Below are positions 525 to 4,960 of a stretch of DNA of 5,441 nucleotides, piece after piece; within the stretch, counting starts at the first letter, position 1; every line of letters starts with the position of its first letter. Under the pieces are notes generated by a model. It made no database searches, was not told the DNA's origin, and saw only the letters and a list, made by a program, of their open reading frames with translations. The position numbers were made by a program, and so were the translations under genes. Origin of the DNA: Synechococcus sp. CO36386bin_37 (GTDB lineage: Bacteria; Cyanobacteriota; Cyanobacteriia; PCC-6307; Cyanobiaceae); NCBI GenBank assembly GCA_011525445.1, contig WTGE01000328.1:1-5441 (forward strand). Direction: 5' to 3'.

Positions 525-701
525 TCAAGCGGCTTCAACTTGAACACTGAGCTCATTGAGATCCGTAAAAGCCTGTCCATCTTCGATGTCATAGAGCTTA
601 TAAAGAGCCATCACAGCTTCTTCCCATTTCTCGTTTTCAACGGACTCCAAAAATTGTTGAAAAACCAACACATTGACAACTTCAAGATCAGCAGAAGTCA
701 T
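525..701 (-). CDS. Small acidic hypothetical protein, 58 aa
   Basis: I do not recognise the family. Starting at the ATG at 701, the minus strand encodes 58 residues (MTSADLEVVN ... LSVQVEAA). It is acidic, rich in Glu, Leu and Val, and looks like a compact helical soluble protein with a central ESVENEKWEEAVMALYKLY segment. Codon choice is ordinary for a cyanobacterial gene. A 94-codon frame on the opposite strand (444-728) overlaps it, but that product is Lys/Ile/Phe-rich and looks like a mirror image of this one. The minus frame extends upstream to 815, but those extra 38 residues are Phe/Leu/Cys-rich and look untranslated. There is no Shine-Dalgarno site; a TACAAT -10-like box lies at 727-722, without a convincing -35. 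It is transcribed away from the TVP38-type gene. The strand is an inference from composition. Confidence 0.5.
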   Translation of the reverse strand: MTSADLEVVNVLVFQQFLESVENEKWEEAVMALYKLYDIEDGQAFTDLNELSVQVEAA

Positions 702-916
702 ATTAGTGTGATTAAAGATACATTGTAACGTCAATTTTGCAAGCAAATTCAATCTAAACCCTAAGAAATTCCATAAATTATAGAAAAGACACCTCAAGCT
801 ACCGCAAGGAATCAAAAACAGATAGCTGACGAAGCTTTATATCAAAGCGATGCGCAGAAGAGTTACAGGCTCGCGAAGCCATTCAAAAGACATGTTCATC
901 GAAGCTATAACATCAC

Positions 917-1633
917 ATGGAAGATCAGGATCAAAGTGAGAACACACAAACCACCGATACAAAAGTGATCCGGAGCCGTCATTCAACCGTGAAGCGATTT
1001 CGCAAAATCATTGGAATCACAGCTCTGATAGCAGTCGCTGTGGTTTTGGTCCACCTGGCCCACACCCACGCCCTTGATCCACTGAGAGCAAGAGTGGCAA
1101 CCATGGGCCCCTGGGCACCACTTGGGATCGTGGCCTTGAGAGGCATCAGCATCATTTTGCCTGCTTTACCCAGCACGGCTTATTCGATACTGGCAGGGGC
1201 TCTTCTTGGCTTTGAAACAGGTCTGATCACAATCGTTGTGACCGATCTAGTGTTTTGCCAACTCGCGTTTGGCATCGCGAAACGTTATGGAAAAAAACCA
1301 GTGAAAGCTCTGGTTGGTGAACAGGCAAGCCAACGAATCGAAAGTTTCAGTGAATCGCAAATTGAAAAGAATCCTCTCCTGCTCACTGGACTGCTCATGA
1401 CAGGTTTGTTCGATTTCGTCAGTTATGCCGCTGGCCTGGGAGGCACACGATGGAAAACATTTACCCCTGCGCTTGTGATCAGCATCGCCTTGAGCTCTCC
1501 TCCGATCGTAGCCCTCGGAGCTGGAGTATTCAATGGAGGGAAAATAATGCTAATCGTTGCCTCGGTGGGAATTTTAGCCCTAGCAATAATAACTGCAGTG
1601 GTCAAAAACTATCAAAAATCAAAACAATTATGA
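917..1633 (+). CDS. TVP38/TMEM64 family (VTT domain) inner-membrane protein
   Basis: This is a 238-residue polytopic membrane protein of the TVP38/TMEM64 family (DedA superfamily, VTT domain), a group implicated in lipid scrambling or membrane homeostasis. A charged N-terminus (residues 1-30) precedes a first helix at about 31-50. The first conserved hairpin follows, with LPALPST (81-87) and AGALLGFETG (93-102), then a membrane stretch to about 121 and the basic KRYGKK. Residues 152-176 hold the second signature, NPLLL ... FDFVSYAAGLGG, and two more hydrophobic segments cover about 184-205 and 210-229. The length is normal for the family. The Arg and Pro that usually sit just before the FD-VSYAAG motif are absent here (LLMTGLFDF). 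No good Shine-Dalgarno site precedes the ATG. A TATAAC box at 906-911 is so close that, if used, the transcript would be nearly leaderless. The gene converges on the psaK cluster. Substrate unknown. Confidence 0.88.
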   Translation: MEDQDQSENTQTTDTKVIRSRHSTVKRFRKIIGITALIAVAVVLVHLAHTHALDPLRARVATMGPWAPLGIVALRGISIILPALPSTAYSILAGALLGFETGLITIVVTDLVFCQLAFGIAKRYGKKPVKALVGEQASQRIESFSESQIEKNPLLLTGLLMTGLFDFVSYAAGLGGTRWKTFTPALVISIALSSPPIVALGAGVFNGGKIMLIVASVGILALAIITAVVKNYQKSKQL

Positions 1634-1662
1634 TTGGTACGTCAAAATGAGAATCCCAATCA
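1613..1662 (-). terminator. Probable terminator of the psaK cluster
   Basis: A perfect 7-base inverted repeat, TGATTGG (1631-1637) and CCAATCA (1656-1662), encloses an 18-base loop. Read on the minus strand, the hairpin is followed by TAATTGTTTTGATTTTTG (1630-1613), a T-rich tail of the kind that releases RNA polymerase. It begins 11 bases after the stop of the 39-residue microprotein. The plus-strand arm starts on the stop codon of the TVP38-type gene, and no T-run follows in that direction, so it fits minus-strand transcripts best. The stem has only three G-C pairs and the loop is long, so confidence is moderate. Confidence 0.4.
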
Positions 1663-1673
1663 AGCTTAGGTTG

Positions 1674-1793
1674 TCAACTAGAAAATTTAATCTCTGAGAT
1701 ATCCAACAGAAGCCAGCCTAAGAAACCAATAGCATTTAACGCTATCACAAAAAGCCAAAGCTTCCAAGGCTGGTTTTTGTTTATAGGAACCAT
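1674..1793 (-). CDS. Single-helix membrane microprotein, 39 aa, downstream of psaK
   Basis: This open frame encodes 39 residues and I recognise no family. The ATG lies 11 bases after the psaK stop on the same strand, a spacing typical of genes in one operon. The product begins MVPINKNQPWK, continues with one clear transmembrane helix at about residues 12-30 (LWLFVIALNAIGFLGWLLL), and ends in a short mixed-charge tail (DISEIKFSS). Three tryptophans, two of them near the membrane borders, and the small Gly/Ala/Asn residues inside the helix look like a selected membrane protein rather than chance. By the positive-inside rule the N-terminus would face the cytosol (stroma side). Size and shape resemble the one-helix subunits of photosystems and cytochrome b6f, but it does not match PsaI, PsaJ, PsaM, PsaX, PetG, PetL, PetM, PetN or the small Psb subunits as I remember them. 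There is no strong Shine-Dalgarno site. A hairpin and T-rich tract follow its stop. Confidence 0.62.
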   Translation of the reverse strand: MVPINKNQPWKLWLFVIALNAIGFLGWLLLDISEIKFSS

Positions 1794-1804: not shown

Positions 1805-2062
1805 TCAAAGAAGACCTTGAGCTCCAACACCTAGAATGACGCCGAAGCCAATCACGTGCCCCAAACTGGTTGTAGCAACAAGGGCCTCTAATCCTAAACC
1901 ACCAAAATATTTGGGGTTAGGTAGTTGAGTACCTGATCCAGGTTTGAAAATCTTTGTACCTATGAAAATTGCAAAGATATTGCATGCAATCATCAAAATG
2001 GCAACCTTTGGTGACCAACTGAAAGTAGCAGGAGGAGCAAATGTCAAAAGAAGTGAATGCAT
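1805..2062 (-). CDS. psaK: Photosystem I reaction centre subunit PsaK
   Basis: PsaK is a small two-helix subunit on the outer edge of photosystem I in the thylakoid membrane. It binds chlorophyll and carotenoid and helps couple outer antennae to the reaction centre. The 85-residue product has the usual length and clear family signatures: SWSPKVAILMIACN at 15-28 opening the first helix (about 18-35), a short loop with QLPNPKYFGG (46-55), and the second helix (about 57-79) with ATTSLGHVIGFGVILG (63-78). The first 8 or so residues (MHSLLLTF) correspond to the short presequence that is removed in other cyanobacteria. The ATG is the only plausible start, because a stop lies 14 codons upstream in frame with no start codon between. 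No Shine-Dalgarno site or convincing promoter is visible. Tiny membrane-protein frames lie 95 bases upstream and 11 bases downstream on the same strand. Confidence 0.95.
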   Translation of the reverse strand: MHSLLLTFAPPATFSWSPKVAILMIACNIFAIFIGTKIFKPGSGTQLPNPKYFGGLGLEALVATTSLGHVIGFGVILGVGAQGLL

Positions 2063-2157: not shown

Positions 2158-2256
2158 CTAGTGGTTGGATCCATCACCCGACAGACCACGTCGAACAAGA
2201 AATTGAGTGAGCGCTAGAAGCCCAAGCAGAAAGCTGGCTGCAATGAATAAATTCAT
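2158..2256 (-). CDS. Single-helix membrane microprotein, 32 aa, upstream of psaK
   Basis: This short frame encodes 32 residues and I recognise no family. It starts MNLFIAASFLLG, has one hydrophobic helix at about residues 3-21 ending TQFLV, and then a basic turn (RRG) and a short polar tail ending GDGSNH. The RR pair after the helix would place the C-terminus in the cytosol. The layout (helix, RR, short hydrophilic tail) is typical of small subunits or regulators of membrane complexes. It lies 95 bases upstream of psaK on the same strand, so the two may share a transcript, but the spacing also allows a separate psaK promoter. It is divergent from the L,D-transpeptidase gene, with 72 bases between the start codons. 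No Shine-Dalgarno site precedes the ATG, which is common in picocyanobacteria. Its shortness is the main doubt. Confidence 0.5.
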   Translation of the reverse strand: MNLFIAASFLLGLLALTQFLVRRGLSGDGSNH

Positions 2257-4330: not shown

Positions 4331-4582
4331 ATGGCACAAACACCTGACTTCAATTCTGCACGTGAAAAAAGAGCTCGATTTGGAAAGATTTTCTCAGCAC
4401 GAGTCGAGAAACTTGTGGATGATTTGAAAGTCATGGCGAAAACAGCCAATTTAGAGATCTATGAATTCGACGATGAATTGGTTAAAAAACTATTCATTGA
4501 ACTGGCTAAACAATTTCAAGCCACCGCTAATCGCTTCGGGGTAGAGTTTGAAATCATGATCGATGGTGAGCAGGTCCGTTGA
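4331..4582 (+). CDS. Small charged hypothetical protein, 83 aa
   Basis: I do not recognise this family. The product is soluble and rich in Lys, Glu, Phe and Ala, without signal peptide or membrane segment. A basic N-terminal stretch (SAREKRARFGKIF, residues 9-21) runs into a probable long helix to about 39. A second amphipathic helix covers about 47-68 (DDELVKKLFIELAKQ and onward). The end, FGVEFEIMIDGEQVR (69-83), looks like a beta strand and turn. This helix-helix-strand shape and the even charge pattern suggest a real folded protein. AAGGA lies two bases before the ATG, closer than usual for a ribosome binding site. The gap of over 200 bases from the GAPDH stop suggests its own promoter. 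It is followed five bases on by a large inverted repeat. Confidence 0.75.
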   Translation: MAQTPDFNSAREKRARFGKIFSARVEKLVDDLKVMAKTANLEIYEFDDELVKKLFIELAKQFQATANRFGVEFEIMIDGEQVR

Positions 4583-4638: not shown

Positions 4639-4750
4639 ACCAAATGAATTCGATAACAAAACACCAATACCAAAGAAATAATAAAGCTAGATTGATTTTC
4701 GTAAAGCCATCGCCTCAATCACTAAAAATCATCTTAAATTTTTCGGAGTG

Positions 4751-4758
4751 AAGGAAAG
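4751..4758 (+). promoter_or_regulatory. Ribosome binding site deciding the start of the 65-residue gene
   Basis: AAGGAAAG lies four bases before the ATG at 4763 and is the best Shine-Dalgarno-like site in the window. It overlaps the first codons of a longer version starting at the GTG at 4748, so it argues for the ATG. Confidence 0.5.
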
Positions 4759-4762
4759 AAAC

Positions 4763-4960
4763 ATGGAAACAGTCAAGAAAGCGCCATCCTGCTTTATGCA
4801 CTGGTCCGTACAAAAAGTAACTTCAAACCTCTATTCAGTCTCAGCAACAACAAACGGAATTCACTACGATCATGTTGGCAATTTCAAATCAGTGAGTGAA
4901 GCTCACACTGCTGGGAGGAGATATGCAGCAACACAATCTCATCAAAAAACACTAGCTTAA
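4763..4960 (+). CDS. Small hypothetical protein, 65 aa
   Basis: I do not recognise this family. From the ATG the product has 65 residues, basic and soluble, with no membrane segment. The central part, HWSVQKVTSNLYSVSATTNG (13-32), alternates polar and hydrophobic residues and is probably beta-strand. HYDHVGNFKSVSEAHTAG (34-51) then leads into a probable helix ending GRRYAATQSH. A strand-rich half followed by a helix containing an EA-x-x-x-G pattern recalls several tiny one-domain families, but I cannot name one. A GTG at 4748 in the same frame would add five residues, but the ribosome binding site at 4751-4758 favours the ATG. It stands alone, with 180 bases before and no gene close behind. 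A weak hairpin lies 25 bases after the stop. Confidence 0.7.
   Translation: METVKKAPSCFMHWSVQKVTSNLYSVSATTNGIHYDHVGNFKSVSEAHTAGRRYAATQSHQKTLA

Follow-up and report, generated by a model that had tools for sequence, protein, structure and literature searches.

Does a 40-codon open reading frame (ORF) lying 11 bases past a psaK gene encode a genuine protein, and does this position indicate a role in photosystem I? The question is raised by the window, i.e., the whole stretch of 5,441 nucleotides from Synechococcus sp. CO36386bin_37 that was analysed, for which the original prediction had proposed a one-helix membrane protein coupled to psaK, perhaps an overlooked photosystem I subunit or assembly factor. 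Few photosynthetic cells in the ocean are as abundant as Prochlorococcus and Synechococcus.

Reading Frame, Helix and Gene Context

The original prediction gave no strand for the frame; it exists on the minus strand, where it translates to MVPINKNQPWKLWLFVIALNAIGFLGWLLLDISEIKFSS followed by a stop (39 residues), but not on the plus strand, where the reading is ruled out by stops. The spacing of 11 bases from the psaK stop was borne out, with the ATG at position 1793 (Table 1). An alternative TTG start at 1808 gives a 44-residue reading, with which a single-sequence protein search found no relatives; the ATG is favoured because the relative in genome G002, described below, begins (GTG) at the position matching it. 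The N-terminus is basic as claimed, with two lysines in residues 1-11. The most hydrophobic 19-mer, LWLFVIALNAIGFLGWLLL, has a Kyte-Doolittle mean of 2.26, and the AlphaFold2 model built with 73 sequences is a single helix (mean pLDDT 87.2, pTM 0.52); with tryptophans at residues 10, 13 and 27, the clean 19-residue helix with tryptophans near its borders was recovered as described. A hairpin with a T-rich tail had also been reported past the ORF: a 7-base-pair repeat is present there, but it makes no convincing terminator, as the terminator scan of the window returned 0 sites and the fold of the hairpin region was not better than that of shuffles (z -0.10), i.e., not beyond chance.

Table 1. 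Positions of the ORF, its helix and the adjoining elements in the window.
Feature	Position	Strand	Basis or remark
VTT-domain membrane protein, convergent neighbour of the ORF	917..1633	+	PF09335; in 8/8 psaK2 loci
Weak inverted repeat past the ORF	1631..1662		7-base-pair arms 1631-1637/1656-1662
39-residue one-helix protein, QPW family	1674..1793	-	Translation, alignment, leave-one-out profile, AlphaFold2
Hydrophobic helix core, residues 12-30	1704..1760	-	Kyte-Doolittle; AlphaFold2 helix residues 10-33
psaK2, second divergent PsaK copy, directly upstream of the ORF	1805..2062	-	TIGR03049, 95.1 bits (cut-off 67.95 bits)
Second one-helix ORF, 32 residues from ATG, upstream of psaK2; not QPW family	2158..2256	-	

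The QPW Family and Its Distribution

No family of Pfam or NCBIfam matches the protein at E<=1, and its matches in PHROGs are no better than E 0.17. A scan for psaK led to the Synechococcus single-cell genome AG-679-C18 (locus L002, genome G002); there, psaK is followed by a 40-residue ORF that shares QPWKLWxFVxxLNxIGFLG with the ORF of the window. The family to which both belong is named here the QPW family, a name coined in this analysis, with the signature QP[W/I]xxWxFVxxLNxxxxxG. An alignment of 73 sequences chosen from 122 proteins has eight invariant columns, Q8, P9, W13, F15, V16, L19, N20 and G26, which were also invariant in the earlier alignment A1 of 19 sequences; in the family at large L19 is nearly, not wholly, invariant, being replaced by F in the members from G123 and G058. 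The window's protein carries all eight signature residues and one helix and thus belongs to the family. In the core it lies nearer to several metagenome proteins than to the G002 ORF.

In the 399 genomes of the order of G002, membership being the search's own grouping around that genome, the window's protein alone finds matches in 243 at E<=1, the best of which proved to be a single family, and the family profile in 188 at E<=1e-3, mostly as a single copy and in genomes of 1.2-1.9 Mb; eight of these 188 are weak (E 5e-5 to 1e-3) and perhaps due to chance, and about 180, counted by eye, are strong. A multi-copy family, hinted at by the search with the window's protein alone, was rejected as the profile gives one copy in most genomes. 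Two QPW matches each, some with internal stops, were seen in G124, G212, G289, G305 and G312, and are perhaps duplicated, decaying copies. Of the 225 listed genomes no larger than 1.9 Mb, which by their size and by the names of relatives are probably Prochlorococcus, 166 carry the family, with four more positives outside that list; the other 59 have no detected copy, for part of which incomplete genomes may account, so the protein may be dispensable. Larger genomes contribute 18 matches at E<=1e-3, 11 of them strong (by-eye count). A phylum-wide sample of 386 genomes gave 26 matching genomes at E<=1.1e-9, all already met in the search of the order, and the best match among the genomes new to this sample reached only 5.2e-4, over 16 positions. 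Judged from these 399 and 386 genomes, the family appears to be found only in the picocyanobacterial order. A protein search with alignment A2 returned 836 clusters at E<=10; among the 120 best, which were assessed for names, most are nameless and the named ones are hypothetical or uncharacterised proteins, including relatives in Prochlorococcus sp. MIT 0602 and a Vulcanococcus MAG.

Coding and Selection

That the frame is merely open by chance might be argued from its length, as 39 codons alone are not significant. A profile of 18 relatives built without the window's own sequence nevertheless recovers this frame at 56.6 bits (E 1.9e-17), no other frame of the window doing better than E 0.78, and selection in the family is visible at the codon level, so that the probability of a chance frame is practically nil and this explanation is already refuted. 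Over the 29-codon core of 42 distinct DNA sequences, which were chosen by the family signature itself, so that conserved residues are favoured and pN is lowered, pN/pS is 0.19 in type C (13 sequences; pN<pS in 78/78 pairs), 0.20 in type B (11 sequences; 53/55 pairs) and 0.38 in the remaining 18 sequences (153/153 pairs), and the shifted frames of the same sequences give 0.87-2.15. This shows purifying selection on the QPW protein. The synonymous-over-nonsynonymous bias proposed as a check also holds between the ORFs of the window and G002 (pS 0.91, which is saturated, and pN 0.28). Relatives' profile, codon selection and predicted helix thus agree that the protein is genuine, conserved and of one helix.

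A toxin-like peptide from a type I toxin-antitoxin pair would be about as short and hydrophobic, but is very improbable, since most genomes have a single copy and the residues are strongly conserved; when one subfamily was compared with 50,697 phage records, all that came up was two partial Enterococcus hits at E 1, a scan of viral contigs confirmed none of eight pattern matches, and the window has no Rfam match. A phage origin was likewise considered and rejected, the psaK-ORF stretch being without a match in the phage records.

The Second psaK Copy and Its Island

The gene psaK is present in 372 of the 399 genomes of the order and in 31/31 of the genus of G002, where scores are 113-126 bits for the main copies (30 genomes) and 93.8-96.2 bits for the second copies (8 genomes); in G002, the second copy alone was detected, with no main copy. 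The score of the window's psaK resembles those of the second copies, and the gene is therefore taken as psaK2. Two psaK matches were also seen in G357, elsewhere in the order.

All eight second-copy loci have in common an island of orf70, orf83, GAPDH, a YkuD-domain protein, psaK2, the VTT protein and orf96. The tree of six island proteins places the window and G002 together with support of 1.0, both on long branches; identity between the island proteins of the two is just 77%. Three ORFs of the window have matches in all eight psaK2 loci: those at 4331-4582 (plus) and 4748-4960 (plus) are conserved at 71-82% identity, the former with sub-threshold similarity to Phage_RpbA and DUF1825 and a match to phrog_35258 (function unknown, E 3.8e-5), the latter with no family match, and that at 525-815 (minus) has partial-length matches of 59-79% identity, with no family above the cut-off.

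The second one-helix ORF of the window, at 2158-2256, whose relatives have 30 residues from a TTG, is a steadier companion of psaK2 than the ORF at 1674-1793: its type precedes psaK2 in 9/9 loci and is found at E<1e-18 in eight of 299 genomes searched, which are the genus's eight psaK2 genomes. Weaker matches (E 1.6e-9 to 4.4e-3) occur in 32 other genomes, in six of which the locus was inspected and psaK is absent within 8 kb; no relatives were found near the 30 main psaK copies. The pN/pS of this family is 0.23 (28 pairs of eight sequences, L070 being left out by the motif used).

Is the QPW ORF Linked to psaK?

A frame kept next to psaK in related genomes had been expected by the original prediction. 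It is kept in G002 but missing from most other loci, as the QPW ORF lies downstream of psaK2 in just 2/9 loci (the window and G002), the spacers of the seven others (55-155 bases) having no match to the family. Around the main psaK, with about 1.5 kb read on either side, a QPW member occurs at 0/30 copies, and in 38/38 genomes compared, a partial count of those with both genes readable on one contig, the start-to-start distance from the QPW gene to psaK is from 49.6 kb to 1.25 Mb. Of the members whose surroundings were inspected, none but the two in the window and in G002 adjoin psaK, and the comparison of 22 QPW loci revealed no neighbour kept across subfamilies. With psaK, the photosystem I gene tested, the family thus shows no conserved linkage.

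Relics of the ORF in the seven other psaK2 spacers are possible. Of the 14 local alignments, each set against 300 shuffles, two were equalled by 3 and 4 shuffles, a third by 12 and eleven by at least 46; since 14 tests were run, the low counts were not taken as evidence of decayed copies. The tree of island proteins fits a psaK2-QPW arrangement that belongs to one branch and, being unrooted, is compatible either with gain in the branch that unites the window with G002 or with loss elsewhere.

Coupling to psaK as an indication of photosystem I is thus not supported on these counts, and by its own refutation test this part of the original prediction largely fails, the ORF being absent from most psaK loci; the two-locus branch and the excess of pS over pN keep it from being refuted outright. 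A subunit or assembly factor dedicated to photosystem I and acting with PsaK2 would suit the position of the ORF 11 bases past psaK2, an arrangement common to two loci united with full support at 77% identity, and its one-helix size would suit the small photosystem subunits; the ORF is missing, though, at 7/9 psaK2 loci and 30/30 main flanks, is separated from psaK by at least 49 kb in each of the 38 genomes compared, and no photosystem chain of the PDB matches the QPW profile, which makes this role improbable. A dedicated photosystem I role for the QPW protein is, accordingly, not supported. A short gene beside a photosystem gene is not in itself proof of a photosystem role, and here it was seen there in one branch only.

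Proposed Role

The reading that we favour, and hold to be rather probable, is that the ORF is a member of an uncharacterised picocyanobacterial one-helix family that is accessory to a membrane complex. Its short basic N-terminus would stay cytoplasmic by the positive-inside rule for membrane protein orientation, and its helix would sit in the thylakoid or plasma membrane. Inside the helix, the conservation of Trp, Asn and Gly in the alignment suggests a face for packing against a partner; Q8, P9, W13, F15, V16, L19, N20 and G26 might pack against a larger membrane protein, which the QPW protein would stabilise or help to assemble. In the branch shared by the window and G002, the ORF is probably cotranscribed with psaK2, as it lies only 11 bases downstream, and this would tie its expression to that of psaK2 without implying that the two proteins touch. 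As no neighbour is kept across subfamilies in the 22 loci compared, nothing points to one complex; the most likely role is that of an accessory subunit of some membrane complex, with photosystem I as one candidate among several.

Two other roles deserve mention. Many bacterial regulatory one-helix proteins are encoded by single genes in changing neighbourhoods, and the QPW gene, mostly one per genome and in surroundings that vary between subfamilies, resembles them; in the Prochlorococcus-size loci L086-L088, its block also contains genes for an FtsH-like protease and a peroxiredoxin (named by eye from the translations). A small membrane regulator, for example of a transporter or membrane protease and unrelated to photosynthesis, is possible but unlikely, as the subfamilies have no common neighbour in the loci compared and the peroxiredoxin is on the opposite strand. 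Rather unlikely, too, is a bolder version of the accessory-subunit reading, by which QPW would be a small, so far unrecognised subunit of a photosynthetic membrane complex in picocyanobacteria (photosystem, antenna or NDH-1), put under second-psaK control in the window's branch, and would lack a structure match since the solved structures come largely from other cyanobacteria.

Comparison with Known Small Membrane Proteins

PsaI, PsaJ, PsaM, PsaX, PsbX and PetN are small one-helix subunits of the photosystems or cytochrome b6f, and their likeness to QPW consists in size and a single helix. None of them matches it in sequence in Pfam, NCBIfam or the PDB chains, in agreement with the original prediction that no known small subunit family fits; the best PDB chain found with the family profile, an antiporter subunit at E 0.25, is not meaningful. 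High-light-inducible one-helix proteins carry the chlorophyll-binding motif ExxN/HxR, which is absent here, as residues 10-33 contain no E or R (by eye) and no Pfam match was obtained.

Among the short conserved cyanobacterial proteins overlooked by annotation are Norf1 and Norf4, the latter with a predicted transmembrane region; according to the available part of that source, their homologues are lacking in marine picocyanobacteria, whereas the distribution of QPW is the reverse (PMC5126843). The available part of another source reports 113 new ORFs of 33-130 residues in MED4 (PMC2518516), among which there may be a Prochlorococcus QPW member. The literature searches yielded no description that was recognised as the QPW family. 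Individual members are already on record as hypothetical proteins: EV06_0879 of Prochlorococcus sp. MIT 0602 (43 residues) and 'MULTISPECIES: hypothetical protein [Prochlorococcus]' (46 residues) both belong to the family and bear its signature, with one helix expected and no function given for either. One-helix small proteins are thus a known kind, and the QPW family, without a model in Pfam, NCBIfam and PHROGs, adds to them a conserved membrane protein of most small genomes sampled, whose lack of a name and a model is a concrete gap.
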